64,000 bases of DNA from an uncultured Rhodocyclaceae bacterium (GTDB lineage: Bacteria > Pseudomonadota > Gammaproteobacteria > Burkholderiales > Rhodocyclaceae), in assembly GCA_907163075.1 (NCBI GenBank), contig CAJQTY010000001.1:3162001-3226000 (forward strand). The letters run 5' to 3'. A program made the translations under genes and the position numbers. Within the stretch, counting starts at the first letter, position 1, and the number at the start of each line of letters is the position of its first letter. Under the pieces are notes generated by a model. The model was not told the origin of the DNA and made no database searches. It worked only from the letters and a program-made list of their open reading frames with translations. Below are positions 9,711 through 26,299 of the stretch, piece by piece.

Positions 9711-9718
9711 CCGTGCAG

Positions 9719-10153: not shown

Positions 10154-10388
10154 GATCTCCGTCCTATCCCGACTCAAAATACCATCCTCAATACAAGCGC
10201 AAGATACTTAATTTTTTATAGATCAATGCATTAGAAAATCCAAATACCATGCAGCGCTGAAAAATAATGGCATGGTATCGAGCGATGTTCATGGTATCAG
10301 AGCCGATAGTACCGTCCGCCAAGCCATGAAAAATCAGTGCGTGGCGGTGCTGTGTGTTGCCAGTCGATGCCAGACCCAGAAGCAAAAA

Positions 10389-10467
10389 AACCCGCAGTGA
10401 CGCGGGCTTAGAGGTGTTTTGTGCTTCTCAAGGCCTGCCGTTGCCAGACATCAAATCACTCCCACTC
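10389..10467. other. attL of the integrated element (guaA 3'-end duplication) with upstream terminator copy
   Basis: The stretch CCTGCCGTTGCCAGACATC then AAATCA(C/T)TCCCACTC is repeated at 24,648-24,685, where its right half is the last codons and stop of guaA. Read on the minus strand, 10456-10472 still encodes the guaA tail T-I-E-W-E-stop, although no guaA gene is here. The probable core is TCACTCCCACTC at 10456-10467. To its right the element begins; to its left is the leader of the older integrase relic with the hairpin CCCGC-AGTGAC-GCGGG (10391-10406). Confidence 0.85.
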
Positions 10468-10569
10468 TATTGTATTTGGTTGCAAAAACATGACCATTAT
10501 CAATACCTTACGAAGGCACGCCAAACAAATGCCATGAAAAATACCATGCTTCATAACCGTTCCTATTGC

Positions 10570-10899
10570 TTAGATCAACACCCAGCCGTCCAGCGCGAAG
10601 CATGCGGCCATATCTCGCCCCTTGTCCGTAGCACCGCCCAAGCATGCCTTGACCTGCTCGAGAGCGGACCCTTCGACGATTGCGCGAGCGAAATCTAGCG
10701 TTGCGGCGATCTTCTTAGGAACCGTGAGCACAAAGCGCACATGCCCCCATTGGTCGTGCTCCGCGTCATAGGTTGCTTGCCAGTAGTCGTATTCGGCAGG
10801 AAGTTCGAACAGCCTCGCCGCCAGTTTGAATTTCTGCCCGTCCCCCCGCTGGTGTATGCCGAGCGAAATATCATGTTGTGAGACTTGTCTGAGCTGCAT
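10570..10899 (-). CDS. Hypothetical 109-residue protein, last gene of the XRE-PRTase-SLOG operon
   Basis: No family is recognised. The protein is soluble, with an aromatic central segment (YDYWQATYDAEHDQWGHV), a run resembling a beta strand plus basic turn (VRFVLTVPKKIA) and a C-terminal helix. A strong GAGGAGG site precedes the ATG. It starts 18 bases after the SLOG gene stop, so it belongs to the same transcript and may be the effector, inhibitor or partner of that system. Confidence 0.7.
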   Translation of the reverse strand: MQLRQVSQHDISLGIHQRGDGQKFKLAARLFELPAEYDYWQATYDAEHDQWGHVRFVLTVPKKIAATLDFARAIVEGSALEQVKACLGGATDKGRDMAACFALDGWVLI

Positions 10900-10917
10900 G
10901 GAACCTCCTCTTATCGA

Positions 10918-11478
10918 TCAGGCGAACATCTGAATCTGTTCGTGCTTCATTGCGTCGATCCGGGAAAACAGCCTGATTTTCTCGTCGGCCTTCTGCTTGG
11001 CGTGCTCCGACATGAACGAGAGCAGTTCTTCGAGCTGTTCAACGGTGCCGATGTTCTTGAAGACCTTGGCCTTGTGCACGAAGACAACAGATTTCTTCTT
11101 GCGCGTCAAAAGTTCGATGACGTTGCTGAGCGTGCCCGTGCTCTTCGTATCCCAGATCATCAAACCGATGTCCGCCACCTCGGCCATGCGAATGTCCTTG
11201 GCAGTGAAGAATGCACGCGACCCCTGTGAATGGTTTGTTTCGACGCATTGAACAGGCCAATGCCCTACGTTATTCCTAGGCCGCTCACCACTACAAAAGA
11301 CGATTGCTCTTGTCGCACTGTGGTCGACTAGGTACTGTTGGATGGATGTGTCAACCCCGTCGGCATCGCCCACCACGACCTCAAAGTCTTGGGCGACGAT
11401 GTTGTCAATTCGCTCCTTGACTTTCGGGTCAAGGTGCTTGATGTTCATCGAGCCGGCAATGAAAACTCGTGTAGTCAT
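10918..11478 (-). CDS. SLOG-type Rossmannoid nucleotide-binding protein
   Basis: A 186-residue protein with the SLOG-like start TTRVFIAGSMNI, the loop VVGDADGVDTSIQQYL, and a second half with IGLMIWDTKSTGTLSNVIEL, where the last G-T/S-x-N segment resembles the phosphate-binding end of YspA/DprA-like SLOG domains. A basic, helical C-terminus (KQKADEKIRLFSRIDAMK) follows. SLOG domains bind or process nucleotide-derived ligands. The ATG at 11478 was chosen for its GGAG site. The gene overlaps the phosphoribosyltransferase region closely and forms an operon with it. Confidence 0.75.
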   Translation of the reverse strand: MTTRVFIAGSMNIKHLDPKVKERIDNIVAQDFEVVVGDADGVDTSIQQYLVDHSATRAIVFCSGERPRNNVGHWPVQCVETNHSQGSRAFFTAKDIRMAEVADIGLMIWDTKSTGTLSNVIELLTRKKKSVVFVHKAKVFKNIGTVEQLEELLSFMSEHAKQKADEKIRLFSRIDAMKHEQIQMFA

Positions 11479-11480
11479 AA

Positions 11481-12071
11481 TCATCTCCAAGTCAGTGCAG
11501 CTACGTAGATATTCCGTACCTTCGGGTATGCACGCAGCACTTTGCAGGCAGCCTCCATCGACGCCCCTGTATGGAACAAGTCATCGACAACTAGCACATT
11601 CCAGGGGCCACCACCTTGGATACTATCGTTTACGCTAAAGCTGTCGCCGATAGCTTCGATTTTCTCGTCCTTGGTGTTCAGGTCCTTGAGAGACTTCCCA
11701 TTCACCGCTTTCACCAGCAGGTTGTCAAAAACGGGGACCTTCACCAGTGCGCCCAGCTCATTGGCCACTTCGGTGACCGGCTGCCGATGACGCGGATTCG
11801 ATGCCGGCATCGGGACGATGAACCCTATATTGGGTAGCTTCGGGCAGATGTGATCTGCAATGGCCTGCGCGAGAGGCTTTACTTGTGCCCAATCGCTTCG
11901 GTACTTTAGCTGATACGTGGCCTCGCCTACCTCGGTACGGGTCGTGTCAAAGCGTGCATGGCCGTATTCGTCATCCCCAAGATAAACGCTTTGCAGGGTG
12001 TGCTTGTCCAGCACCCATCCACCATCCCATGGCCCGAAAATTTGTCTAAGCGAAGCATTCAAAGCAGTCAT
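11481..12071 (-). CDS. ComF-like phosphoribosyltransferase
   Basis: A 196-residue protein with a type I PRTase fold. The PRPP-binding signature is VLVVDDLFHTGASMEAA (about residues 157-173), with two acidic residues followed by T-G-A-S. The upstream FIVPMPASNPRHRQPVTEVA matches the ComF-type hood region. An N-terminal domain of about 80 residues is not recognised. It starts 14 bases after the XRE gene and runs into the SLOG gene. PRTase plus SLOG pairings are known from predicted nucleotide-based conflict systems; the substrate base is unknown. Confidence 0.8.
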   Translation of the reverse strand: MTALNASLRQIFGPWDGGWVLDKHTLQSVYLGDDEYGHARFDTTRTEVGEATYQLKYRSDWAQVKPLAQAIADHICPKLPNIGFIVPMPASNPRHRQPVTEVANELGALVKVPVFDNLLVKAVNGKSLKDLNTKDEKIEAIGDSFSVNDSIQGGGPWNVLVVDDLFHTGASMEAACKVLRAYPKVRNIYVAALTWR

Positions 12072-12085
12072 CCTTTCGCGCCAGA

Positions 12086-12421
12086 TTAGGCGATTGCTAT
12101 CGTCAGCTGTCCGGTCGGGTCGGTGGCCGGCCGTACTTTGATCTCAATGTCGTACCCGAGACGATTCAGGCACTCCATCAATTTGCGCTCAGAGAGGTTG
12201 GCAAAGTCGCCACGCATCATCCCCGACACCTTCGGTTGTGGAATGCCCATGCGCCGACCAGCCTCTTCTTGGGTCAGGCCAAGACGACGCACGGCGCGGG
12301 TAATCTCGATCACCAGGCCGGACTTGATCTTGAGCTTCTCGGCATTGGGTAGCCCGAGGTCGGCGAACACGTTGCCCGAGCTGGTTTCGATCTCGACGCC
12401 TTCAATCATGCGCTTTGTCAT
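12086..12421 (-). CDS. XRE-family HTH regulator (HigA/HTH_37-type antitoxin-like)
   Basis: A 111-residue DNA-binding protein whose HTH is LGLTQEEAGRRMGIPQPKVS (about residues 50-69), followed by the family tail RLGYDIEIKVRP. Proteins of this type usually act as antitoxins next to a RelE/HigB-like toxin, but no toxin gene stands upstream. It instead heads the PRTase-SLOG operon, so it is probably that operon's repressor or immunity component. AAAGGAG precedes the ATG and a palindromic operator lies 50 bases upstream. Confidence 0.85.
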   Translation of the reverse strand: MTKRMIEGVEIETSSGNVFADLGLPNAEKLKIKSGLVIEITRAVRRLGLTQEEAGRRMGIPQPKVSGMMRGDFANLSERKLMECLNRLGYDIEIKVRPATDPTGQLTIAIA

Positions 12422-12470
12422 GTCGTAGCTCCTTTGCCCACGCTCGCCCCATCCAACGAGTACTTAGTCT

Positions 12471-12486
12471 ATACCACTTCAGGTAT
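12471..12486. promoter_or_regulatory. Candidate operator of the XRE regulator
   Basis: ATACC-ACTTCA-GGTAT is an exact inverted repeat with 5-base arms in the gap between the divergent XRE operon and the 320-residue regulator-like gene. It may serve either protein. No second copy was noticed in the window. Confidence 0.4.
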
Positions 12487-12569
12487 GGAATCAAACAATC
12501 AAGAGATACACATATTGCTCCAATATCGCACAATGCTATCATTACGTTTTTCCACGACAGGAAGCCATC

Positions 12570-13532
12570 ATGTTTAGCAAGATCGCGATTCGGAACATAC
12601 CCAGCCAAATCCTTCGGGCACTTGAAACACTGGCTGACCTCCATGACCGCTCAACGGAGGCCGAAGCTCGGCAAGCGCTGAGAGCCTGGGTTGAGCCGCT
12701 GTTGGTTCAGGACAGTCGAAACACCCGCCGCAAGGAAGTCGCAGAGCGACTCAACCGAATGCTGACGCAAGCCAACTCCGGCCAGCGAGGCACAAAGCTC
12801 ACTCCATCACACATCGCCGAAGCCATTAAGGAGGAGCGAGCGGAAGATGTCGAGGACTGGTTTCTTGCGGAAAAGGAGCCAAGTTTTTCCCAACTGTCGG
12901 CCATCGCAAGCTTCCTAGGCGTCGATTCAGACTGGCTCAAGCATGGCGACAAAACGCTCTATCCACCCGCATATGAACGGTTGTCTGAGAACCCTTTCGA
13001 AGCCGTGGATTGGCTTCTGAGCTGGAACCTCGCCAACAACCAGAATGATGGAAAGCTCAAAACCTTGCACCTGATCCGAGCCGACAATCCCACCGGCGGG
13101 CTGTACATGGTGAAGGAATCCGACAAGGGTCACTTTCGGACGTTTTACACGCCGATTCATGTATCAGAGGAGATTGGTGCAGGCGGTGAAGCTTCACTAG
13201 CCGCGCTTTTCGTTACGCTCGAACTTCTGTACAAGCGCTACACCGCGATGGGTAGCGGCATCATGGTTCTAGGTTACCAACTGCGGCCCGACGACATCGC
13301 GCAATTGACCAATGGAAACACTCACCCCGGGTCTCTGCTCAAGGAGGGATCGCGGTCTATGTGGTGGGAGGACATATGGGATCACGAGATGGCACCGAAG
13401 CATGACTACTGGCCGGGCTGGAAATCACTGTACGAGCGCGTAGAGCGAGTGATCTCGGCCCGAACACATCTGAACGAATTGCGGGCACAGATTCGTCAAG
13501 GCGCGACAACGATGGCTCGCAGCGACAATTAA
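12570..13532 (+). CDS. Two-domain putative regulator: ribbon-helix-helix plus helix-turn-helix
   Basis: A 320-residue protein. Residues 1-45 resemble FitA-type ribbon-helix-helix antitoxins (IAIRNIPSQILRALETLA, then DRSTEAEARQAL). Residues 75-135 look like an XRE-type HTH (LTPSHIAEAIKEER, then PSFSQLSAIASFLGVDSDWL). The remaining 185 residues are unrecognised, with conserved-looking acidic and aromatic patches (GSRSMWWEDIWDHEM). AGGAAG precedes the ATG. It is divergent from the XRE-PRTase-SLOG operon and may control it or the element. Confidence 0.7.
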   Translation: MFSKIAIRNIPSQILRALETLADLHDRSTEAEARQALRAWVEPLLVQDSRNTRRKEVAERLNRMLTQANSGQRGTKLTPSHIAEAIKEERAEDVEDWFLAEKEPSFSQLSAIASFLGVDSDWLKHGDKTLYPPAYERLSENPFEAVDWLLSWNLANNQNDGKLKTLHLIRADNPTGGLYMVKESDKGHFRTFYTPIHVSEEIGAGGEASLAALFVTLELLYKRYTAMGSGIMVLGYQLRPDDIAQLTNGNTHPGSLLKEGSRSMWWEDIWDHEMAPKHDYWPGWKSLYERVERVISARTHLNELRAQIRQGATTMARSDN

Positions 13533-13605
13533 CCCCCTGCCGCGCACAAGACCATCATGGGGGGCCAAGCTCCCGCCGAGCCGATTAGTCGTTGATTGAA
13601 TCTAA

Positions 13606-13791
13606 TCAGCCTTTTTTAGCCTTGCATCTGGCGATGGCCTCCGACACGGTTTCACCAGGCTGAAGGTCGTACAGCTCGCGGGCGTTGGTCGTGGTGATAA
13701 ACGGCGGGACTTCCGCGCTGGGGCCGTCATCGTCCAGGAATGCCGGCTCTTCTTGTGCCCGATCATCGGCGATGCTGCCAGGGCCGCTCAT
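13606..13791 (-). CDS. Small acidic hypothetical protein (61 residues)
   Basis: The ATG overlaps the stop of the preceding small gene (ATGA), which argues for real translational coupling at the end of the tra/trb operon. The protein is acidic in its first half and ends ETVSEAIARCKAKKG, a helix with a basic tail. No family is recognised. A role in transfer or regulation can only be inferred from position. Confidence 0.55.
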   Translation of the reverse strand: MSGPGSIADDRAQEEPAFLDDDGPSAEVPPFITTTNARELYDLQPGETVSEAIARCKAKKG

Positions 13792-14042
13792 TGCGCAGTT
13801 CCCGGAATAAGTCGAGCGGCCTGCTGCTTGATCGAGGCGATATCGTGTGGCCTAGGCTGCGGCCCACCTGATACCTGGCAATTCAGCAAGACGCAGGCGC
13901 TCGTCATCGCCTCAAGAAGATCCACGACTTCACGGCGAGGGCGGCGCACTCTGCCTTGAGTCTGAGCCTCGGCAACCGCCAGCATGTCATGCAAGACCTC
14001 GGCGTACTGTTTGACTCGTTCACTCGTGATAACGGTATTCAT
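13788..14042 (-). CDS. Hypothetical protein downstream of trbL (84 residues)
   Basis: The ATG at 14042 has AGGAG eight bases upstream and starts just beyond the trbL stop. The protein is mostly helical (SERVKQYAEVLHDMLAVAEA, RREVVDLLEAMTSACVLL) with a basic centre. It occupies the position of trbM in RP4 but is not recognisably TrbM. The stop overlaps the next gene. Confidence 0.6.
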   Translation of the reverse strand: MNTVITSERVKQYAEVLHDMLAVAEAQTQGRVRRPRREVVDLLEAMTSACVLLNCQVSGGPQPRPHDIASIKQQAARLIPGTAQ

Positions 14043-14059
14043 GGCTATTTCTCCTGGCG

Positions 14060-15634: not shown

Positions 15635-15638
15635 ATTT

Positions 15639-15845
15639 TCACCTTTTCGGGTTGGTCAATTCGAGCCAGTTTTTCGGCTTCTCGGTCGGAGCAATCCTGC
15701 TTTCGGTCGATGCCTTATGGGCGCATTGCTGCTGCTCTTCTTGGTTGCTCGGGTTTTTGCAGTCAAGCTCACGCCGACCGCACCCAGAAACCAGAAGCGC
15801 CACGGCCACGGCGAAAATCAGAGGCGTGATGTGCTTGGCTTGCAT
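15639..15845 (-). CDS. trbK: TrbK-like entry-exclusion lipoprotein
   Basis: A 68-residue protein with a lipoprotein signal peptide and lipobox LVSGC (Cys22), as in IncP TrbK, the surface-exclusion lipoprotein that blocks entry of related plasmids. It sits between trbJ and trbL exactly as in RP4. Its C-terminus STESRI...KPKNWLEL closely repeats the C-terminus of the neighbouring TrbJ. If functional it would defend the host, or the element, against a second IncP-type donor. Confidence 0.75.
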   Translation of the reverse strand: MQAKHITPLIFAVAVALLVSGCGRRELDCKNPSNQEEQQQCAHKASTESRIAPTEKPKNWLELTNPKR

Positions 15846-15860
15846 GGTGTGTTCCCCTGG

Positions 15861-16640
15861 TTAGCGGTTTAGTTCGAGCCAGTTCTTCGGGCTGTTGGTC
15901 TTGTCGATGCGACTCTCCGTTGAAGTGGCGTGCGCTGTTGCCTGCTGCGCCTCTTTGTCGGCATCAGCCTGCATCTTGGTAGCCACCGCGTTCTGCTGCG
16001 CGATCAACAGACCTCGAATCTGCAAGAGCTGGTTTGCCTGCTGGCTGGCTAACTGGTTGGCGTAGCCGATTGCCTGCATTTGGCCGCTCGCACCTTGAGC
16101 TGAAGACTGCAAGCGTTGCAGCGTTGCTGAGTCGTTTTGCAGGTTCCTTTGTTGCTGATCCAATCCCTTAAAAAGCGCATCGTTGGCCTTCTTCTGCGAC
16201 TCGCTCCCGAGCTGCCCTACCTGCCCCATCGCTGCCCATTGGGCGGCCGTGCATCCTGCCGACGAGAAACACGGAGAGTATTTGTAGTAGCTCACATCCT
16301 GGAACTTTCCCAGGTAGCTATCGAGGCTGCCGAGCTGGTTCTTGTAGTAATCCAGCGTATTAACGGCATTCATCAAACCGTTGATAGTCGATTGGGCTTG
16401 ATCCCAGATATAGGCGGCTGGTGCCGCCGTGTTTTGAATCATGTTCTCGTACTGCTGCAACTGCGTTTGATATTGCAAAATCTGCTTGAGTGTCTGCGCA
16501 ACTGATTCTTGCGCCGACAAGATATTTTGAGTCAAATTTCCACCGTCGATGACGGGGATTCCAGCATGCGCCGGAATCGATACGCCACCGGCAAGGGTCA
16601 GTACCAGGGCAAGAGTTGCGGTTACTTTGGTCTTTCTCAT
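15861..16640 (-). CDS. trbJ: Conjugal transfer protein TrbJ (VirB5-like)
   Basis: Periplasmic, pilus-tip-associated component of IncP-type secretion systems. The 259 residues start with a signal peptide (cleavage likely after IPAHA, near residue 26), followed by the TrbJ pattern GIPVIDGGNLTQ and long glutamine-rich coiled helices (AQTLKQILQYQTQLQQYENM), then a Gln/Ala-rich helical C-terminal half. A conserved pair of cysteines lies in SPCFSSAGC. A KorB operator match lies 17 bases upstream of its ATG. It is downstream of traJ on the same strand. Confidence 0.9.
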   Translation of the reverse strand: MRKTKVTATLALVLTLAGGVSIPAHAGIPVIDGGNLTQNILSAQESVAQTLKQILQYQTQLQQYENMIQNTAAPAAYIWDQAQSTINGLMNAVNTLDYYKNQLGSLDSYLGKFQDVSYYKYSPCFSSAGCTAAQWAAMGQVGQLGSESQKKANDALFKGLDQQQRNLQNDSATLQRLQSSAQGASGQMQAIGYANQLASQQANQLLQIRGLLIAQQNAVATKMQADADKEAQQATAHATSTESRIDKTNSPKNWLELNR

Positions 16641-16657
16641 ATCAAAACTCCTTTTGT

Positions 16658-16670
16658 TTTAGCGGCTAAA
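16658..16670. promoter_or_regulatory. KorB operator (OB) match upstream of trbJ
   Basis: TTTAGCGGCTAAA is an exact match to the IncP-1 KorB operator consensus TTTAGC(G/C)GCTAAA. It lies in the 33-base traJ-trbJ gap, next to the trbJ ribosome binding site. KorB is the global repressor and ParB-like protein of IncP plasmids. No korB gene is present in the element, so the ligand would have to come from another plasmid. Confidence 0.8.
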
Positions 16671-16673
16671 AAT

Positions 16674-17045
16674 TCACTGGTCAGTCTTTGGCATGACCAC
16701 GGCACGCATGGCCTCGTGCATCTTGTCCTGCGTATCCTCGATCTTGGAAAGCAGGGCGCGAATGGTGGATTCGCCGAATCGTGCGGTTCGCGGGTCGTCG
16801 GTCAGCCAGAGTTTCAGCAGACCACCAAGGCGGCCAAGGTCGCCATTGATACGCGCCAGTTCCTCCACGCGCTTGTGATCCAGAATTCCACGCACCCGGT
16901 AGCCCATACCCACATTCAATAAGTAGGTGGACAGGCTCAAGCCTGTGGCCTTGGCGTTCACCTCGATCTGATTTCGTTCTTCGGGAAGGCAATACACCTT
17001 GATTGGTGGGCTGCATTTCCGTGTCGCTTTGTCGGTTTTTTCCAT
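16674..17045 (-). CDS. traJ: Relaxosome protein TraJ (IncP type)
   Basis: oriT-binding accessory protein that loads the TraI relaxase in IncP plasmids. The 123 residues read like RP4 TraJ throughout: SPPIKVYCLPEER near the start (ribbon-helix-helix), then ARINGDLGRLGGLLKLWL, TDDPRTARFGESTIRALL and a helical C-terminus. Length equals RP4 TraJ. Its ATG lies about 40 bases from the oriT, as in RP4. The cognate TraI relaxase is absent from the element. Confidence 0.93.
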   Translation of the reverse strand: MEKTDKATRKCSPPIKVYCLPEERNQIEVNAKATGLSLSTYLLNVGMGYRVRGILDHKRVEELARINGDLGRLGGLLKLWLTDDPRTARFGESTIRALLSKIEDTQDKMHEAMRAVVMPKTDQ

Positions 17046-17079
17046 CGTTCCGCCTTTCTTTTGACGGCGGTAGCCGTCT

Positions 17080-17180
17080 GCCTCGCAGAGCAGGATGCCC
17101 GTTGAGCACGTAGTGCGAATAAGGGCCAGTGAAGAAGGACAACCCGCTTGCGGGTGGGCCTACTTCACATATCCTGCCCC
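17080..17180. other. IncP/RP4-type origin of transfer (oriT)
   Basis: From 17080 the sequence follows the RP4 oriT nearly base for base: CTCGCAGAGCAGGAT (17082-17096), CCGTTGAGCAC, GTGCGAATAAGGG, then the imperfect inverted repeat GTGAAGAAGG.../...CCTACTTCAC (17129-17168) that TraJ binds. The nic region TATCCTG|CCC follows, with the predicted nick between 17176 and 17177. The order oriT-traJ is as in RP4. The match to the relaxase-recognised nic hexamer suggests an IncP TraI could act on it in trans. Confidence 0.93.
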
Positions 17181-17348
17181 GTACTTCACCGTGCTTTCCG
17201 CACTGACTCACCATCACGGCATCGAACAGCCCCTTGCCTTTAAGCATTCTTCTTTCGATTGAAAGAAGGAAGACGGGAGAAACAACGCCATGAACGATGT
17301 TGCGCATGGTTTTGATGGATGCAATTTCGGCAATTGAACGAAGCAGGA

Positions 17349-17606
17349 TCATTTGCTTGTCCACTTTTGCGACCTACCAGGCCGAGCGGGAAGCAAGAGC
17401 CGGGCATAACGGCGAAACGTCTGATATGTGTACGAGATACGCCCCTCGTCACGGAGCGTTTCCCAAATCGACAGCAGCGAATAACCATCATCGACAGCTT
17501 TTGAAACATCGCCACGAACCAATATGAATGCCGCGCGATTTCTATCATTTCGACCAGCGCTGTTTTTCAATGTGCTATCGGCGATCCGCTCGGATAGGCT
17601 TTTCAT
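17349..17606 (-). CDS. traK: TraK-like oriT-binding protein
   Basis: An 85-residue basic protein resembling the DNA-binding N-terminal part of RP4 TraK. The segment RAAFILVRGDVSKAVDDGY followed by SIWETLRDEGRISYTYQTF parallels the VRADV...GYALVTIWEHMRETGKVKFSYETF core. RP4 TraK (134 residues) has an extra C-terminal tail missing here. In RP4 traK is divergent from traJ across oriT; here both are on the same strand, so this side has been rearranged. The ATG at 17606 has GAGG upstream. TraK wraps oriT to help strand nicking. Confidence 0.75.
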   Translation of the reverse strand: MKSLSERIADSTLKNSAGRNDRNRAAFILVRGDVSKAVDDGYSLLSIWETLRDEGRISYTYQTFRRYARLLLPARPGRSQKWTSK

Positions 17607-17610
17607 GGGA

Positions 17611-17847
17611 TCAGACCTCATAGCCATGCGACTGGAACACTTGAGCCATATTCGAACCTTCCCAGCTTCCCGGCCGACTTATGACCATTGCAGCGTCCTC
17701 GGCCAGCATGACAAGTAGCTTCGATACGGTCTGTTCCCCGTGGCTTGTAAAACCTTTCTGGCGTCGATGTTCATCGGTGCAGCGCACGGCCAATGCGCGA
17801 AGATTTGAAACCGTTTCTTCACTCACTTGGATGACGATTCGCTTCAT
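17611..17847 (-). CDS. Small ribbon-helix-helix-like protein upstream of traK
   Basis: A 78-residue protein starting MKRIVIQVSEETVSNLRALA, a beta strand followed by a helix as in ribbon-helix-helix regulators. The remainder is helical with no recognised family. The ATG at 17847 has GGAG upstream. Its stop lies 4 bases before traK, so the two are co-expressed; a regulatory or relaxosome role is inferred. Confidence 0.6.
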   Translation of the reverse strand: MKRIVIQVSEETVSNLRALAVRCTDEHRRQKGFTSHGEQTVSKLLVMLAEDAAMVISRPGSWEGSNMAQVFQSHGYEV

Positions 17848-18085
17848 TGTTTTTTTCTCCGATGCTGAGGTCGCCGTCCAATAGCGCGGCAACGTCCTTG
17901 GTTTGGAAATACATCCGCCGCCCGATATAGACCTTGCGATGATTCATCTCGTGTGCCCACGCGTCCTTTGGCTTGAGTAATGCCATTCGCAATCCCTCTG
18001 GTTTTCGGCTCAGAGTCGTGGCGACTTGTTCGAGCGTCATGACCACCCCGTATTGCTCTATAAGAATCTCGAATGTCGAATTCAC
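17819..18085 (-). CDS. HTH-type DNA-binding protein, paralogue of the gene upstream of repA
   Basis: An 88-residue protein with a GTG start. Its helix-turn-helix region MTLEQVATTLSRKPEGLRMA and the later VYIGRRMYFQTKDVAALL align with LSIAQLAAVLDRSPDGLRIS and VYFRTSQIAELF of the protein at 21377-21610. Such small proteins are common as plasmid control genes. It heads the traK-traJ-trb transcript and overlaps the following gene, so it may regulate transfer. Confidence 0.65.
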   Translation of the reverse strand: MNSTFEILIEQYGVVMTLEQVATTLSRKPEGLRMALLKPKDAWAHEMNHRKVYIGRRMYFQTKDVAALLDGDLSIGEKNNEANRHPSE

Positions 18086-18196
18086 ATGCTTGGCCTAATG
18101 CTGATTGACTGAAGCTCATGTATGAATTCTTGGGCAGACAGGGGTAAGATGGCAGTGTGAAAAACATCGAGTTTTCTTACTAGGACGAATTGCCCT

Positions 18197-18997
18197 ATGG
18201 CCCGACCAACACGCACCACGACTGAACAACTACGTGGCGGAATACGAGCAGTGGCACTCATGCGCGAGCTGGCCAAGCGAGTCGGAGCGGAGAACCCCCA
18301 TCAGTTCGCCGGATGGTTTGATGAACGTACCGGCATGGATACGCAGGCGTCAGGAAAATGGCGCCTGAATTTCAGTGGCGACCGGCCACTTTCCCCTCAA
18401 CAGCTTCAATTGCTGTCGCGCCTTGATGGCGACGTAGCGCAACTGCACCGCAATGGACCCGCCGACATATGGCGTGCACTGTGGGGAGATGTCCACGAGT
18501 TATGGGCGCTGTCCCGCAGGCGCTTTTGCATCCATGGCTCAACACTGGATGACCGTATATGGTCAGCAATTGAGGACGAATTCGCTGACGAAATTTCCTT
18601 CGGTTCCACGCTCCGGGAATTCGAGGGTGACTTATTGCTCGCCGACGCCTATCGCGAACCGCTCGCGCTTCGTCACTTGACCGAAGCCATCGCCCTCTAC
18701 AGGTTGCACCAGCACATGAACAGCATTGCTCCGTCCGACGTGGATGGTGTCGGCGCGTATCGATGCGTGCACATGTGCTTGGAAGATGCGGCGGTGCGAA
18801 GTGAATTAGGCCGCCTGGGCATTGGTGACCTACTGGCAGGCCATTTAGCTGATATGGAACTTGGCCGACTGGAGCGTGAAAGGTCTTATCGTGCGTCCGT
18901 CGCCGTTGATGACCTGGCCGGGTACGTGAGGAACCCGCTAGCCTTCATATCTCACGACTCCCGGTGGGCGGCACTAGGATTCGCCTGGGCAAACTGA
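18197..18997 (+). CDS. Hypothetical protein of the element (266 residues)
   Basis: Not recognised. The N-terminal 80 residues (VALMRELAKRVGAENPHQFA, then ASGKWRLNFSGDRPLSPQQL) resemble a degenerate HTH seen in plasmid-borne hypothetical proteins. The rest is helical with DIWRALWGDVHELWALSRRR and a C-terminal DSRWAALGFAW. It is divergent from the traK-side operon, and a KorB-operator match lies 31 bases after its stop. It has no primase motif, so it does not replace the missing IncQ RepB. Confidence 0.7.
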   Translation: MARPTRTTTEQLRGGIRAVALMRELAKRVGAENPHQFAGWFDERTGMDTQASGKWRLNFSGDRPLSPQQLQLLSRLDGDVAQLHRNGPADIWRALWGDVHELWALSRRRFCIHGSTLDDRIWSAIEDEFADEISFGSTLREFEGDLLLADAYREPLALRHLTEAIALYRLHQHMNSIAPSDVDGVGAYRCVHMCLEDAAVRSELGRLGIGDLLAGHLADMELGRLERERSYRASVAVDDLAGYVRNPLAFISHDSRWAALGFAWAN

Positions 18998-19027
18998 AAA
19001 CAGCCGGGTTTGATGCTCGCGTGAAAT

Positions 19028-19040
19028 TTTAGCGGCTAAA
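19028..19040. promoter_or_regulatory. KorB operator (OB) match, left of oriV
   Basis: TTTAGCGGCTAAA is the second exact KorB operator match. It lies 31 bases downstream of the 266-residue gene, at the edge of the non-coding replication region. As KorB also acts at a distance, it could affect genes on either side or aid partition. Confidence 0.75.
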
Positions 19041-19067
19041 AATTTGAGTAATGAACGGACAGCTCCC

Positions 19068-19106
19068 GGTAAGAATAATAAGAATAATATTCTTATTATT
19101 CTTACC
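19068..19106. repeat. Perfect 18-bp AT-rich hairpin beside oriV
   Basis: Arms GGTAAGAATAATAAGAAT (19068-19085) and ATTCTTATTATTCTTACC (19089-19106) are exact inverted copies with a 3-base loop (AAT). The stem is almost all A/T, unlike its surroundings. It is either a bidirectional terminator, a strand-opening region or a structured part of the replication origin. Confidence 0.7.
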
Positions 19107-19111
19107 AGCAC

Positions 19112-19261
19112 CGCCCCTCAAGTGTCAATGCCATTCGAGTGAAAAGCGCTGCCGAAGCCACAAGAATGGTCGCCCCATCAAACCAAGACTGTTTTGACGC
19201 CAGAGAGAGAAGAAAAATCCGGGTTCGCATTTCATATGCAACTTCATTGACACTTGAGGGG
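19112..19261. repeat. 150-bp segment bounded by a 19-bp inverted repeat (possible ssi pair or miniature element)
   Basis: CGCCCCTCAAGTGTCAATG (19112-19130) and its exact inverted copy (19243-19261) enclose about 110 bases without a gene. In RSF1010 the oriV contains two oppositely oriented single-strand initiation sites within an inverted repeat, and the location beside iterons and repC fits that. A MITE-like insertion with short flanking GCAC repeats (19108-19111 and 19263-19266) is the alternative. Confidence 0.6.
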
Positions 19262-19271
19262 CGCACGGTTT

Positions 19272-19284
19272 TTTAGCCGCTAAA
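19272..19284. promoter_or_regulatory. KorB operator (OB) match within the oriV region
   Basis: TTTAGCCGCTAAA (the C variant) is the third exact KorB operator match. It sits 11 bases after the inverted-repeat segment and about 300 bases before the iterons. Confidence 0.75.
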
Positions 19285-19584
19285 AAGACAACGGTGCCGG
19301 CGATTCGGGCTACTTTCTTTCTGGCGTCCAAACAGCGGCGTTAGCCGCCCAGAACGCAAAGACCTTGCGCCGATTACGGGGGCACGGTCTGCGAAGTGGC
19401 CGACACTGCTCTTCCCTTCTGGCGTACAACCCAAAGGCCGAAGGCCGACCATCGGCAAAGGCTTGGCGTCGCCCTAAAGGGCGGCGGCAAGTGCCGCGCC
19501 TAGTGGATGATCTTGGAAGATCATGGATGGATTTTTCGAATCGCCAGCAAACCCGCGCCGTTGCTGGGTTTTTCAGATTTTGGC

Positions 19585-19687
19585 GGGGAACGTTACCGTG
19601 GGGATTGGGGAACGTTACCGTGGGGGTGGGGGAACGTTACCGTGGGGGTGGGGGAACGTTACCGTGGGGGTGGGGAACGTTACTCCG
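19585..19687. other. Vegetative origin iterons (IncQ-like oriV)
   Basis: Four tandem 22-bp repeats run 19585-19606, 19607-19628, 19629-19650 and 19651-19672, each built on GGGGAACGTTACCGTGGG with small changes at the 3' end. A partial fifth copy (GGGAACGTTACTCC) runs to about 19687. They lie directly at the 3' end of repC, as iterons of IncQ-like plasmids often do, and are the expected RepC binding sites. The region 18998-19614 holds no gene; it contains this array, the hairpins and two KorB sites. Confidence 0.88.
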
Positions 19688-20514
19688 GGAGCCTTCGGCC
19701 TGCTAATTTCCCATTTCCCTTTGGCGTACTCGCTCACTGTCCAGCCCACGGCGGCAAGCTCGGCAAGTGCCTTGCGGGCGGTCTGGCGGCGCTTTTTCAT
19801 TGCTTCATCGTTGGCCGCATCTGGCCATACATAGCCGCACAGAGTGTCGATTTCAGCCTTGCCAGCCTTGCCGGGGTCAATCCAGCCGCACAGCCGCTGA
19901 TGTAGCAGTCGTGTTGGGTCGGCCTGTAACGCTCGCACCTCGTCCATGTTGATGCGGACATGTTGCCCGCAGCCCATTACAGCTTGGGCAAGCAGGGGGT
20001 TTAGGGCCACATACAGCTTTCCATCCTGCTCATCACTGGCGTACTCGGACAGCAGGCGGAAGCCCTGCCGCTTCCTGCCGTTCTGGGCGATGATGGATAC
20101 CTTCCAAAGCCGTTCGATGCACTCCCGTACCGGCTTGGTGTCGTCGGGGTTGGCATAGCCGATTTCGCGGGCTAACGCCCGATAACTGCCCTTGACCACC
20201 ATTGCATCTTGCTGGACAGCTTCCCACTTCGGTTCAAGGAATAGCCGGAGTTGTCGCCCGCCTTCGGTTTGCGGTTCAGGTGACAGCACAATGCCACTCG
20301 GCCCCGCCATTGCCACCAGTCCTTGCAGGATGCGGAGATCATCAGCACCTAGCGGCTCTGGGCCGCTGAACTCGATGCGCTTGCCGTCGCCGTAGTCATG
20401 CACCACGTCCAGCTTGCCGCGTTTGCGTTCGCCACGCTGAAGGCTGCGGAAAAGTCCGCGGGCAAGGCAATGCGCAGGGTCGTGCCGTGCGTGGGTCAGG
20501 TCATGCTTGCTCAC
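19615..20514 (-). CDS. repC: IncQ-type replication initiator RepC
   Basis: Iteron-binding initiator. It reads like RSF1010 RepC along its length: THARHDPAHCLARGLFRSL near the start, IEFSGPEPLGADDLRILQG, LRLFLEPKWEAV, DAMVVKGSYRALAREIGY, IERLWKVSIIAQNGRKRQGF, LHQRLCGWIDPGKAGKA. The GTG at 20514 is preferred: it matches the RSF1010 start region, has AAAGGGGG upstream and lies within the end of repA, so translation is coupled. The RSF1010-like end (RPKAPG) is followed by about 22 extra Pro/Thr/Val/His residues that are simply the translated iterons. Confidence 0.93.
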   Translation of the reverse strand: MSKHDLTHARHDPAHCLARGLFRSLQRGERKRGKLDVVHDYGDGKRIEFSGPEPLGADDLRILQGLVAMAGPSGIVLSPEPQTEGGRQLRLFLEPKWEAVQQDAMVVKGSYRALAREIGYANPDDTKPVRECIERLWKVSIIAQNGRKRQGFRLLSEYASDEQDGKLYVALNPLLAQAVMGCGQHVRINMDEVRALQADPTRLLHQRLCGWIDPGKAGKAEIDTLCGYVWPDAANDEAMKKRRQTARKALAELAAVGWTVSEYAKGKWEISRPKAPGVTFPTPTVTFPHPHGNVPPPPR

Positions 20515-21373
20515 GTTTTCCCCCTTTCTTTCCTGCGCCATTGCTGGCGGCATCTTGTAGTTCGACGGGCAGCAACACCCCGCCGCTGTGCCGCTGATAC
20601 CAACGGTCTAGCGGGGTCGCGTCGTAGTTTTGTTTGCTCACACCAAAGCGGACAAAGAGACCGCGCCGGTCGTTGCCGATGGGTGAACGATCAAAGCCCC
20701 GGTCACTCATGCGCTCGGCTTCCTGCTCTGTCATCTTGGCGACGTAGCCGCACCAGCGGGCGTTGTCGATCAGGGCCGATGCTCCCCGCGCTGCCTGTTG
20801 CTGGTCAGTCTGCCCTTCACGGACGCTTCCCTTGCTGACATGGTGCAGGTAGAGCACGGATGCGCCCGTAGTAGCCGCAACGTGCTCAAGCACGGCCACG
20901 AGATGGGCCATGTTGCCGTTGCTGTTCTCATCGAGGGCGTGAATGCGGCTCAGGGTATCCAGCACGATCAGCCGCGCCCCGGCGCTGTACTCGATGACAC
21001 GGCGCAAGTGAGCATCATCCATGATGTTCAGGCGCTTGCCCATGATCGGCTCTAGCGCGAGGTTCTCCGCGATGGCTTGGCGGGCTGCGTGCCCGAGGTG
21101 CTGGCCGATGGCATGAATGCGCCGCACAAGCGCGGGCGGCGGGTCTTCCCCGGCCAGATAGACCACGCGCCCGGTGTGTGCGGGAGCAAGGCCCACAAGG
21201 TCGCCACCAGCAACGCTACATGCGATGCTCATCGCCGCTTCCAGCGCCCAGAAGCTCTTGCCTGTGGCCCCTGGGGCGACGAGCGCGCCGACAGTCCCCG
21301 CCAGAAAGCCTGGCCATATGAAATCCAGCGTAGGCGGCTCGTGTTCGAATGCTTCCAGTACATCAATCGCCAC
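20501..21373 (-). CDS. repA: IncQ-type replicative helicase RepA
   Basis: Hexameric DNA helicase of the IncQ replicon (RecA/DnaB fold). The 290 residues carry the Walker A motif APGATGKS (about 33-40), the acidic Walker B-like LIVLDTLSRIHALDENS, the LYLHHVSKGS motif and the QQQAARGASALIDNARW segment, all as in RSF1010 RepA. The start is GTG, with GGGGAATT upstream. It directly follows a small HTH gene and overlaps repC by 14 bases. The third IncQ factor, the RepB primase, is not encoded in the element. Confidence 0.92.
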   Translation of the reverse strand: MAIDVLEAFEHEPPTLDFIWPGFLAGTVGALVAPGATGKSFWALEAAMSIACSVAGGDLVGLAPAHTGRVVYLAGEDPPPALVRRIHAIGQHLGHAARQAIAENLALEPIMGKRLNIMDDAHLRRVIEYSAGARLIVLDTLSRIHALDENSNGNMAHLVAVLEHVAATTGASVLYLHHVSKGSVREGQTDQQQAARGASALIDNARWCGYVAKMTEQEAERMSDRGFDRSPIGNDRRGLFVRFGVSKQNYDATPLDRWYQRHSGGVLLPVELQDAASNGAGKKGGKREQA

Positions 21374-21376
21374 GGC

Positions 21377-21610
21377 TCAATTCCCCGTGTCGTTCAGGGA
21401 CTCGTCACTGAAGAGTTCGGCGATCTGCGAGGTACGAAAGTAAACCCGCTGCCCAATCTTCAAGCGGGTCTTGTTTATCCGTTGCGTCCACTCGTTCGTT
21501 GTGCGCAGGCTGATTCGTAACCCGTCGGGTGAGCGGTCAAGGACAGCCGCCAACTGCGCGATGCTCAACAGCGGGCCGAACCGTTGCAGCAAAGTCTCTT
21601 CTATCGTCAT
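21377..21610 (-). CDS. Small HTH DNA-binding protein heading the repA-repC operon
   Basis: A 77-residue protein from the ATG at 21610. The HTH is LSIAQLAAVLDRSPDGLR, followed by the wing-like KIGQRVYFRTSQIAELF. It is a paralogue of the protein at 17819-18085. Its stop lies 3 bases before the repA GTG, so it probably controls replication genes in the way small repressors do in IncQ plasmids, though it is not the RSF1010 F repressor. Confidence 0.7.
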   Translation of the reverse strand: MTIEETLLQRFGPLLSIAQLAAVLDRSPDGLRISLRTTNEWTQRINKTRLKIGQRVYFRTSQIAELFSDESLNDTGN

Positions 21611-21691
21611 TGCGTAAAACTCCGTAATCAACCGAATGACTACGGAGATTAGGCATCATTGGGATTTACTACACCCCATTAATTGCACATA

Positions 21692-22840
21692 ATGGTTGAC
21701 ATGGAAAAATCGTACTCACCAACGTTTCGAGCCAAAGCAGTCAGCCTAGTCAATGATGAAGGTATGTCTGTGGATCGTGTGGCGAAGCAGCTCGCGATAC
21801 CGAAAAGCACCCTCTTTTGCTGGGTACGTGCCGGCAAAAAGGAACTACCCATTGCCATCTGGGACGGTTGCGATTCCATCGTCTCGGAGGCCATCGGACG
21901 CTTTCAGGATCGCTGGCGGCCATATTCCGCATCCTCGCGGCGTTACCCTATCGGAAAATTGATACAGGAGCTGATCGATCCCGCCGTGTCCGCGTACACG
22001 GCTAAACTGCCACCACGCTACCTAGCCCACCTTCCGGGAGCCGGGACAGGGGTGGCCGTCAGCGGAATTATTCGCTTGGTGGGACTTGATGCAATGGTTC
22101 GGCTGCAACGTCAGTTGCTGCGGGCGTTTATCCTCACAGAGGACAAACAGACTGCAAGAGATAAGCGCTTTGTTGCCACACTCGAATCATTGATCGAATT
22201 GGTATTGGCCTGCTCTTGCAAACGCCCAAAAACGTCAGTTCCCGCGAAGGGAGTCAGCCTGAATGCACAACGGAAACACGGCTTTTGCGATCTCTGCGGA
22301 AACCTGACAGAACTCTCGGCCTTCATGGCGAAGGTTGCAGAGCAGCAGGTCAATGAGACAGAACTTCACGATCAAAAAAAGCTCGAACTCAGCCACCAGT
22401 ATTGCACTGGGCATCGGCCAAAGCTAACGAATGGCGAGTGGAACCCCGCATACAGGCAGGCGAAGCGATCAATAGAGCAATTCAATCTTGAACTGGGCAG
22501 GATAAATCGACAGTGCGCCAAGCGGTCTAGCCCAAATGCGACGACGTCGGGTGACTCGCTGGTTGACAGCTACTTTTTCCACTATTTCTCAGGCCAAACC
22601 TTACAACCTGCCGACAAAGCAGACTTGCGCAACTTAGCGCGGCTGATGGTGGACTCAAAGCTATCGGACACCAGGAAGAAAATATTGATGCTCCGGTACT
22701 CTGGGTTCAATCAGTCGGAGATTGCGGAGCATCTTCTTGGTAAAGACAATCGGGCACTGACGCGTCAAGCAGTATCTAAGGCACTCGCATCGATACCCGC
22801 AATGTTTCACCTGAAGCAAAAGAAACGCCCCGTTCGCTGA
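21692..22840 (+). CDS. Putative DNA-binding protein with HTH, zinc-ribbon-like and sigma-4-like parts
   Basis: A protein of about 382 residues with no clear family. Residues 1-45 look like a transposase/Hin-type HTH (PTFRAKAVSLVNDEGMSVD then VAKQLAIPKSTLFCWVRAGK). The middle holds cysteine pairs CDLCGNLTEL...CTGH that could bind zinc. The C-terminus (ILMLRYSGFNQSEIAEHLLG, then ALTRQAVSKALASIP) resembles a sigma region 4/LuxR-like HTH. It is divergent from the repA operon and precedes alpA. The start is uncertain (21692 or 21701; no clear ribosome binding site). Confidence 0.7.
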   Translation: MVDMEKSYSPTFRAKAVSLVNDEGMSVDRVAKQLAIPKSTLFCWVRAGKKELPIAIWDGCDSIVSEAIGRFQDRWRPYSASSRRYPIGKLIQELIDPAVSAYTAKLPPRYLAHLPGAGTGVAVSGIIRLVGLDAMVRLQRQLLRAFILTEDKQTARDKRFVATLESLIELVLACSCKRPKTSVPAKGVSLNAQRKHGFCDLCGNLTELSAFMAKVAEQQVNETELHDQKKLELSHQYCTGHRPKLTNGEWNPAYRQAKRSIEQFNLELGRINRQCAKRSSPNATTSGDSLVDSYFFHYFSGQTLQPADKADLRNLARLMVDSKLSDTRKKILMLRYSGFNQSEIAEHLLGKDNRALTRQAVSKALASIPAMFHLKQKKRPVR

Positions 22841-22944
22841 CATTACGTGGCGTCAACCAAATTGACCAACAACTAGGCCGACACAATCTGCATTGCCAGG
22901 CACCATCAGGCACATGTTCGCAAGTGACTGAAAGAGGGCAAGGC

Positions 22945-23184
22945 ATGCACGCAACCACAAACAAGACGCTCATCAACCGCAAGAAACTACTGGCGATGAT
23001 TCCGCTGTCTGAGCGCACGATCTTCAACATGGAGCAGCGGGGTGAATTCCCGCGCCGCATCGCTCTCACCAGTCGCAACGTGGCTTGGGACTTGACCGAT
23101 GTTGAGGAATGGATCGAGGCTCGGAAGTCATCGGGCTACCAGGCCACACGCCCCGGCTTCACTCCGTCGGCCGCAGTCGCTTGA
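22945..23184 (+). CDS. AlpA-family excisionase/regulator
   Basis: A 79-residue winged-HTH protein: LINRKKLLAMIPLSERTIFN, then EFPRRIALTSRNVAWDLTDV and EEWIEAR, the AlpA pattern. AlpA proteins regulate or direct excision of P4-type integrases. The ATG at 22945 has AGAGGG upstream; an upstream GTG at 22924 is less likely. Its 3' end overlaps the 3' end of the convergent integrase gene by 26 bases. Confidence 0.88.
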   Translation: MHATTNKTLINRKKLLAMIPLSERTIFNMEQRGEFPRRIALTSRNVAWDLTDVEEWIEARKSSGYQATRPGFTPSAAVA

Positions 23185-24367
23185 CCGTCCACTCATCAAG
23201 CATGTCAGCCCAATCTTGCAACATGGCCGTGCGCTGCTCCCGATATTCGGCCTTGTTGTACACCGCCCTCACACCCTTCTGTTCGTGGGCGAGACACTTC
23301 TCAATCCAATCGGTGTTGTACCCAGCTTCATGTAACAAGGTGCTGGCCGTCCTACGCAAGTCGTGCGGCCCGAACTTCGCCAGGGCCTTGCCCTCCTTCT
23401 GCGCTAGCCTGTAGGTCAGCGTCAGCACCTGGTTGAGCGTGGCACTGCTCATTGGCAAGTCCGAGTCATAACGTGACGGCAGCACGTATTCAGACCCACC
23501 GGCAAACGTCTTGAGCGCGATGAATATGTCCAGTGCCTGCCGAGATAGGTACACGTGGTGCGGGTTGCGCCGCTTCATCCGCTCCTTGGGAACGGTCCAA
23601 AGCGCCTCGCTGAAATTGACCTCGCTCCATGTCGCGTTCGTCAATTCACTCTTGCGCACCATCGTCAACAGCAGCAACTTGGCCGCAGCCCGAATCGAGG
23701 GCGTGGTGCCGATACGCTCCATGTACTGGTACATCAGCCCGATCTCGTCGGGTGTTAGCGCCCGGTCGCGGGGTTCAAACTTGGCAATGGTGGTTGGCCT
23801 GACCATATCCGCCGGATTCTCAACCTTCTGGCCGCGCTCAATCGCCCACCGGAACACCTGCATAACCACCTCGCGCACGTGCACTGCCGTGGCCGGTGCG
23901 CCGCGTTCCACAATGGTATCGGTCAGGGTGCGCAAGTCCTCGTGCGTGATCTCGACCAGCTTCTGGTTGCCGAACTTGGGCTTCAACTCCCGTTCATAGA
24001 CCGCACGGCGCATGTCGCGGGTCGAGTCGGCCATCTGGTAACCGCGTAACCACTTTTCCGCCCAGGCACCGAATGTCTCGGCATCTTTCACGCGGGCTTT
24101 GTCACGCGCCTTCTCCCTGGCCGGTGACTTCCCGGCGGCGATCATCTTCTTGGCCTCGCCCAACTGCTCGCGGGCTTCCGACAGGGTGATGCCTCCGGTG
24201 CCATAGCGCCCGAAGGTGATGGTCTCCTGTCTGCCGTTGATCGAGTAGTTGTATCGGAACGAGATCGCCCCGGCGGGCGTGACGGCCACATAGAGGCCGT
24301 CACGGTCGTTCACTTTGTAGAGCTTGTCCTGCGGCTTGATGTTGCGCAGCTTGGTATCGGTCAGCAT
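23159..24367 (-). CDS. int: P4-type tyrosine integrase targeting the guaA 3' end
   Basis: A 402-residue site-specific recombinase. The N-terminal DUF4102 domain (LTDTKLRNIKPQDKLYKVND) is followed by a SAM-like core-binding domain (about 100-180) and the catalytic domain: the first arginine in RKSELTNATWSEV, the HxxR box in GPHDLRRTASTLLHEAGY, a late histidine in CLAHEQ and the nucleophile tyrosine in AVYNKAEYREQR. It lies next to its attachment site in guaA. The ATG at 24367 is preferred over an upstream TTG. An inactivated copy of its first fifth lies at 9719-10153. Confidence 0.93.
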   Translation of the reverse strand: MLTDTKLRNIKPQDKLYKVNDRDGLYVAVTPAGAISFRYNYSINGRQETITFGRYGTGGITLSEAREQLGEAKKMIAAGKSPAREKARDKARVKDAETFGAWAEKWLRGYQMADSTRDMRRAVYERELKPKFGNQKLVEITHEDLRTLTDTIVERGAPATAVHVREVVMQVFRWAIERGQKVENPADMVRPTTIAKFEPRDRALTPDEIGLMYQYMERIGTTPSIRAAAKLLLLTMVRKSELTNATWSEVNFSEALWTVPKERMKRRNPHHVYLSRQALDIFIALKTFAGGSEYVLPSRYDSDLPMSSATLNQVLTLTYRLAQKEGKALAKFGPHDLRRTASTLLHEAGYNTDWIEKCLAHEQKGVRAVYNKAEYREQRTAMLQDWADMLDEWTVKRLRPTE

Positions 24368-24601
24368 GGTATCCGTCCTATCTCGACTCAAAATACCATG
24401 TTCAAAACAAGCGCGAAATATTCAATTTTCTTTTTATAAATCAATTACTTCGAAAATTTCAATACCATGCGACATTGAAAAATCATGGCATGGTATCGAG
24501 CGCTGTTCATGGCATCAGCGAAGATAGTACCACCCGCCATGCCATAAAAAAACAGTGCTTGGCGGTGCTGTGTGTTGCCAGTCGGTGCCAGACAAAGAAG
24601 C

Positions 24602-24627
24602 AAAAAAGCCCGCAGTGACGCGGGCTT
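24602..24627 (-). terminator. Rho-independent terminator of guaA, supplied by the element
   Basis: On the minus strand, after guaA, AAGCCCGC-GTCACT-GCGGGCTT is followed by TTTTTTG. It lies on the integrase side of the attachment core, so the guaA transcript ends inside element DNA. The same hairpin lies beside the left attachment site (10389-10409). Confidence 0.8.
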
Positions 24628-24647
24628 ACAAGCTTTTTGTGCTTCTC

Positions 24648-24685
24648 AATGCCTGCCGTTGCCAGACATCAAATCATTCCCACTC
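24648..24685. other. attR: element-guaA junction
   Basis: The copy CCTGCCGTTGCCAGACATC then AAATCATTCCCACTC ends inside the last codons of guaA. It matches the left copy ending at 10467, after which the two flanks diverge (guaA here, element DNA there). The likely crossover core is TCA(T/C)TCCCACTC at 24674-24685. guaA keeps an intact reading frame. Confidence 0.85.
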
Positions 24686-26239: not shown

Positions 26240-26299
26240 TTTCAAGCCTTGAATGAATAAGGGCGGCCACTGGAGCCGCCCGGCGGGATATGGAATCAA

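Follow-up and report, generated by a model that had tools for sequence, protein, structure and literature searches.

Recurring KorB operators in a relaxase-less, GIsul2-related island at guaA point to a possible use of IncP-type helper plasmids

Introduction

Two described elements stand closest to the locus treated here, a 14.2-kb mobile island borne by guaA in a 64,000-nucleotide stretch of DNA (hereafter the window; positions 3162001-3226000 of its contig) from the genome of an uncultured Rhodocyclaceae bacterium (5.2 Mb, four contigs). For GIsul2, Int-driven excision and integration have been shown, the excised circle included (PMC9376610), and the use of an IncP relaxase together with a reshaping of the transfer pore was proposed in 2017, when the comparison with SGI1 was also drawn (PMC5704250); the same paper states that GIsul2 has no relaxosome genes. 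SGI1 carries two parS-like sites that are bound by ParB of its IncC helper, stabilise SGI1 and help to expel the helper (PMC10954446). The ParB of IncP-1 plasmids is KorB (PMC5577506), a CTP-dependent sliding repressor that acts over more than 1 kb (PMC11790492).

From its sequence, we read the window island as a GIsul2-like integrative mobilisable element without a relaxase of its own that would depend on an IncP-type helper and carry sites bound by KorB, with partition and titration as the likeliest use of the sites at its origin; we give this reading a probability of about 0.63. What looks new is the recurrence of KorB operators in such islands. The island itself is a variant GIsul2-type element, and GIsul2 has already been compared with SGI1 in print (PMC5704250). 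No report of KorB sites on guaA islands, GIsul2 or IncP islands was found in the literature searched, a search that left most subscription journals outside its coverage.

Results

A GIsul2-type island at guaA with an incomplete IncP transfer module

End-to-end alignment of the two island ends revealed a common repeat of approximately 300 bp that terminates in ATCAAATCAyTCCCACTC; this terminal sequence includes the GAGTGGGA core described for GIsul2 (PMC9376610). The left attachment (att) copy (ATCAAATCACTCCCACTC) lies at 10450-10467, where the island borders on the remnant of a second one, and the right copy (24668-24685) overlaps the 3' end of guaA (open reading frame, ORF, 24674-26299). The island borders proposed in the initial annotation of this DNA were thus recovered from the repeat alignment, and insertion at the 3' end of guaA with this core is the arrangement of a GIsul2-type element. 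Reading leftwards from guaA, int and alpA come first, then a regulator-like gene and a small one for a helix-turn-helix (HTH)-like protein, and then repA, repC and the iterons. Next is an inverted repeat of the origin type, after which come a gene of unknown function, small genes, the gene for a TraK-like protein, the origin of transfer (oriT), traJ, trbJ, trbK, trbL and, last, the cargo.

The leftward traK-traJ-trb gene row begins at 18085 and encodes, on the minus strand, a TraK-like protein (DUF5338; 17349-17627), TraJ (16674-17045) and TrbJ (15861-16640), both NCBIfam equivalog matches, a small TrbK-like lipoprotein (15639-15845) and TrbL (PF04610; 14060-15634). An RP4-like oriT region, assigned by alignment to RP4, lies on the same strand at 16998-17179 and extends into the traJ start. 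Identities to the RP4 proteins amount to 65% for TraJ, 62% for TrbJ, 51% for TrbL and, over 58% of TraK, 37% for the TraK-like protein; from oriT to the traJ start, 157 of 196 alignment columns are identical. Among the matches listed (60 of 440), the nearest relative of TrbJ by identity is that of pYKCG107 (84% over 83% of the query). These alignments and the TraJ equivalog match bear out the IncP oriT, TraJ and TraK-like protein first proposed for the island. The proposed TrbJ-TrbK-TrbL set was retained for TrbJ and TrbL; the TrbK-like protein gave no useful alignment with RP4 TrbK and is named from its position and lipoprotein-like start, and a role in exclusion is assigned to it by position only.

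The island had also been said to lack KorB, a relaxase, a coupling protein and the remaining Trb proteins. In the window, no match was found to RP4 TrbA, TrbB, TrbC, TrbE, TrbF, TrbG, TrbI, TrbM, TraI or TraG, a query set that did not include TrbD, TrbH, TrbN and smaller proteins. Genome-wide, there was no match to the PF03432 relaxase profile (positive in 1 of 14 controls) or to TrbE (RP4 positive control fully matched). A protein search for KorB, with a fully matched RP4 positive control, returned just three ParB-like matches of approximately 30% identity across the genome; it was used instead of the KorB_C Pfam profile, which matched nothing anywhere, controls included. The absences therefore stand for KorB, the relaxase and the Trb proteins queried, and for the coupling protein TraG within the window, to which its search was confined. 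TrbJ-K-L without other queried trb genes (TrbD, TrbH and TrbN being outside the query) or a relaxase is the complement of a GIsul2-type element, and the island does not have the relaxase and full type IV secretion system of a self-transmissible integrative and conjugative element.

KorB operators in the window

The exact KorB operator 13-mer, TTTAGCSGCTAAA, occurs three times in the window, the number initially annotated: at 16658-16670, between traJ and trbJ, and at 19028-19040 and 19272-19284, on opposite sides of the origin repeat, the latter 10 bp from its arm. Two of the three sites thus flank the origin. The trbJ-proximal site lies 18 bp before the ATG and outside the trbJ frame, which is closed by stops, yet the site is kept. 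At up to 2 mismatches the motif has 4 matches in the window, against 0.69 expected, and 1 of 100 shuffles attained 4. In the whole 5.2-Mb genome the exact motif was found 3 times, all within the island. Because a reversed control pattern occurs 2 times, the genome count by itself is not telling; the clustering and exactness of the sites are.

KorB operators in related islands

A scan of genome contigs for TrbJ gave 64 loci, and searches with the regulator gave matches in 10 of 399, 1 of 369 and 5 of 398 genomes, the source genome being counted in each. Eighty loci were sorted by gene content, L001 and the short loci L072-L086 having been set aside beforehand. Judged on the available stretch of each, 46 contained one or more of TrbB/E/F/G/I, 29 contained TrbJ or TrbL but none of these five, and 5 contained neither. 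The initial annotation had suggested a search for further elements that combine int, an IncP oriT, trbJKL and repAC in guaA, and the plan of the window was indeed found in seven of the 29 loci (the window, L004, L011, L012, L016, L045 and L088), as well as in the available part of L031. Other islands have int and the regulator first and AlpA after them (L003, L005, L017 and L091; also L096-L098), with RepA present in L005, L017, L091 and L096. Loss of the relaxase is not general among the islands, since L003 and L091 carry a relative of the TraI relaxase. L087 and L090 are incomplete islands, each at the edge of its contig; L090, at a contig start, and L107, at a contig end of the same genome, are possibly one island split across contigs, and L107 holds a 59% relative of the window gene at 18197-18997 with a KorB site behind it.

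KorB sites were counted in 19 loci that have Int and the regulator or are GIsul2 (L067, in pAB3), leaving out L006 and L031, whose stretches are without int; removal of the near copies L011, L012, L016, L045, L088 and L098 left 13 non-redundant islands. GuaA was present in 17 of the 19, the exceptions being the plasmid-borne L067 and the available stretch of L091. An exact KorB site was found in 17 of the 19 islands, or 11 of the 13. Over 115 kb, the 13 islands carry 24 exact sites, whereas not one of the 119 palindromes made by permuting the half-sites is present. Across 13 whole genomes, the motif was found 28 times versus 9 for the reversed pattern, each time within or close to an island of this type or genes of IncP type. 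Of these sites, 21 fall within island stretches and 3 are on other contigs next to tra/trb genes. Genome G237 accounts for the remaining 4, of which three share a contig with homologues of KorB/IncC and the fourth is close to homologues of TrbM/TrbE. This genome is that of L092, which together with L089 shares the int/regulator backbone, has a divergent transfer module (TrbJ/TrbL 27-31%) and has no exact site in the island.

The sites recur at several places. Among 77 loci with TrbJ, 60 have an exact site at the trbJ start, which is in frame (peptide LAAK) in 58; the two others are L044, whose match starts too late to judge, and the window. The 17 loci without an exact site include L008, cut by a contig end, and L018, which differs at the centre base. 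A further position is the traJ/traI border, as in RP4. Diverged islands, unlike the window, have sites just beyond the convergent ends of int and the regulator or alpA. At the IncQ-type origin, 8 of the 10 loci with RepC have a site at a distance of 8-10 bp from the arm of the repeat, the exceptions being GIsul2 and L031; in the window, a further site lies across the repeat from it. Neither the origin sites nor those at the int/regulator junction lie on IncP-derived genes. It is on this recurrence at several places and on specificity that the case for the sites rests, and the island operators are probably functional KorB sites.

Two Pseudomonas loci with TraJ, a TraK-like protein and TrbJ/TrbL, and with no guaA integrase in the available stretch, carry a close pair of KorB-type sites behind trbL, one exact and one a centre-base variant (L010, 12640-12690; L015, 12620-12670).

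Replication, integration and cargo genes

The island encodes, on the minus strand, an IncQ-type RepA helicase with plasmid matches (AAA_25; 20501-21373) and an IncQ-type initiator RepC (PF06504, 525 bits; 19615-20553), whose 3' end is overlapped by iterons at 22-bp spacing (19585-19694). Beyond these lie an inverted repeat with 19-nt arms (19112-19263), which we take to be in the place of the IncQ ssi sites, and an AT-rich palindrome (19068-19106) similar to one in the GIsul2 origin. RepA, RepC and iterons are the parts expected of an IncQ plasmid replicon. The initial annotation had noted these parts, which were confirmed, and the lack of a RepB primase; neither RepB nor MobA was seen among the ORFs listed or the main ORFs scanned with Pfam, no RepB-specific search being part of this. 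The plus-strand gene that follows (18197-18997) encodes a protein of unknown function with relatives in other such elements. A 179-bp stretch of pXAM48, a trfA- and trb-bearing plasmid from Xanthomonas (L099, 16001-16179), is 89.6% identical to window positions 19416-19594, and a KorB site lies approximately 240 bp from this stretch, which matches the origin flank of the island.

The tyrosine integrase (PF00589; 23159-24391, minus strand) is 89% identical to that of GIsul2 (tblastn to L067) and its gene overlaps that of an AlpA-type excisionase/regulator (PF05930; 22924-23184, plus strand). Int, AlpA, RepA and RepC all exceed the Pfam cut-offs; a small HTH-like protein preceding RepA (21377-21631, minus strand) matches HTH_17 below the cut-off. 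The regulator-like protein of the island core (385 aa; 21683-22840, plus strand) has an HTH, a CxxC/CxxH middle part and a sigma-r4-like C-terminal HTH. Near its N-terminus is an extra transposase-like HTH of approximately 44 aa that is absent from eight aligned relatives. Its best matches in the PDB had E values of 0.42 and 0.54, and its predicted structure was weak (pLDDT 63.8, pTM 0.43). For most unknown ORFs, searches of NCBIfam, PADLOC and PHROGs added little, and a promoter scan was uninformative, with fewer matches than in shuffles.

The remnant that adjoins the left end, at about 9.7-10.46 kb, consists of the N-terminal part of a second int and its upstream region. Since this decayed int end sits beside the left border, two such islands probably once stood in tandem. 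The remnant (9700-10456) holds a short repeat-like insert near 9815-9900. The cargo (10918-12421, minus strand) comprises a PRTase-like protein, an overlapping gene that matches PHROG 289 (GTP-binding domain, E 7e-10) and an XRE-type HTH gene; with PADLOC matches of the PRTase-like protein to ShosT (E 3.4e-10) and PsyrT (E 1.8e-9), it resembles toxin-antitoxin systems of the ShosTA/PsyrTA type.

Discussion

The initial annotation described the locus as a possible SGI1-like parasite of IncP plasmids. Of this, a relaxase-less island that would use IncP transfer and swap in its own TrbJ and TrbL is the best reading of the sequence; the idea had already been put forward for GIsul2 (PMC5704250). 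Each step of excision, replication, transfer and KorB binding we infer. Int and AlpA would excise the island from guaA, and the IncQ-type RepA and RepC may replicate the circle. The TraI relaxase of the helper would nick the RP4-like oriT, assisted by the TraJ and TraK-like proteins of the island, whose TrbJ and TrbL would be incorporated into the pore of the helper. KorB of the helper would be bound at the exact operators beside the origin and in the transfer operon; KorB/IncC would partition the excised circle via the origin sites and KorB would be titrated against the helper, with silencing of island genes as a close second use. The notion of helper-sensing sites holds as far as the exact matches to the KorB operator of the helper and their recurrence in relatives go; the logic of the SGI1/AcaCD activator boxes differs, because KorB is the IncP repressor and ParB.

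As to what the sites do, we tentatively place helper-driven partition and interference first, at somewhat short of even odds, because the origin is flanked by two of the three sites and a position close to an origin is common for parS sites. Several points weigh against this use or against the overall reading of the island. No IncP-type helper plasmid was found in the source genome, and replication is uncertain because no RepB primase was seen. GIsul2 has the KorB site at trbJ only and none at its origin, and five of the eight islands with an origin site (L011, L012, L016, L045 and L088) are near copies of another. The origin site taken alone could persist by chance, because from iterons to repeat arm the window and the L004 type share approximately 80% identity. 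Six IncQ-type plasmids have no KorB site even at 2 mismatches, which counts in favour of the reading, but they are not exact origin controls, because the repeat-arm word was not seen in them. L051 and L054 keep the LAAK peptide without an exact site. In RK2, going by the title of Williams 1998, only O_B3 is reportedly a competent centromere, the other sites being destabilising. Finally, approximately 0.9 kb separates site 19028 from the point where the leftward gene row begins, a distance within the silencing range of KorB, which makes silencing almost as likely as partition.

The sites could thus serve as operators, from which KorB of the helper slides and silences excision, replication or transfer genes of the island for as long as the helper resides in the cell, these being freed in a KorB-free recipient. 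KorB alone represses a promoter 4-5 fold from 1.5 kb (PMC11790492), a second site lies between traJ and trbJ, and in L005, L017 (a centre-base variant), L091, L096 and L097 a site is found 1.07-1.14 kb from the start of the alpA match. However, no KorA operator was found in the island at up to 2 mismatches, the sole 2-mismatch match of the window lying outside it; the distance from the origin sites is about 2.1 kb to the start of repA and 3.6 kb to alpA, and the sites of other islands lie at convergent gene ends. We hold the operator use possible, with the odds somewhat against it.

A passive inheritance of the sites from the IncP DNA that supplied traJ-trbJKL would fit the sites of RP4 at the trbJ start and the traJ/traI border, and the two loci that keep LAAK without an exact site suggest that the peptide may matter by itself. 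Sites are also found, however, on parts that are not IncP-derived, the IncQ-type origin and the int/regulator junction, in diverged islands, and the trbJ site of the window lies outside the frame, so that this explanation is unlikely. The same out-of-frame site weakens the case for the peptide as the sole reason to conserve the trbJ site, L051 and L054 notwithstanding. The least likely account is that the island is a dead, immobile remnant: a degraded second int end lies alongside and neither RepB nor a helper was seen, but the core genes are open, neither att copy is missing and several named hosts have islands of the same plan.

Returning to partition and interference, the guaA islands may have placed sites for the ParB of the helper (KorB) by their own origin and integrase, such that KorB/IncC would segregate the excised island and be titrated from the helper. 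Such parS mimicry would have evolved apart from SGI1/IncC and in diverse hosts; this wider proposal is a speculative one to which we give rather less than an even chance. Few known plasmids are more promiscuous than those of the IncP group. Should their KorB serve unrelated islands as well, SGI1 on IncC and the guaA islands on IncP would converge on the partition protein of the helper. An exact KorB site without korB would then be a simple DNA marker for IncP-dependent elements, and island persistence after excision and its effect on helpers could be tested directly.

Among known systems, GIsul2, compared through PMC5704250, PMC9376610 and the copy in pAB3, is the most similar. It shares with the window island the att core, Int (89%), AlpA (86%), RepA (47%), RepC (60%), TrbJ (66%), TrbL (48% over part) and the KorB site at trbJ. 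The window island has in addition TraJ, a TraK-like protein, the RP4-like oriT, the 385-aa regulator and the origin KorB sites; its alpA is oppositely oriented and its cargo differs from the ars, CR2 and sul2 of GIsul2. Because the TraJ and TraK-like relaxosome proteins are present, it is a variant of GIsul2 rather than the same element. The 'IncP islands', known here by description alone, share the guaA site (Brucella suis) and TraJ/TraK with TrbJ-K-L (Burkholderia glumae) but are described as encoding a MobP relaxase (PMC5704250). IncQ-type plasmids such as pQ7 and pBRST7.6 have RepA/RepC and an iteron region in common with the island, whereas they have no KorB site and bring their own mobilisation genes. 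Mobilisable plasmids with traK-traJ-traI and trbJKL (such as pSE5418-aacA3) likewise have trbJKL without other queried trb genes and a KorB site at trbJ, but are free plasmids with their own TraI relaxase and ParA. SGI1 is similarly relaxase-less, with pore subunits related to those of its helper, and it carries sites for the ParB of the helper (PMC5704250, PMC10954446), of which the exact KorB operators of the island would be putative counterparts. It differs in its integration gene, IncC helper, pore proteins and replication module and is activator-driven; the TraN, TraH and TraG of the IncC system are not those of the window island, where the pore genes found are trbJ and trbL, and common descent is not claimed. 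By analogy, the nearest parallel to the KorB sites of the island would be the mimicry by SGI1 of the parS of its helper (PMC10954446).

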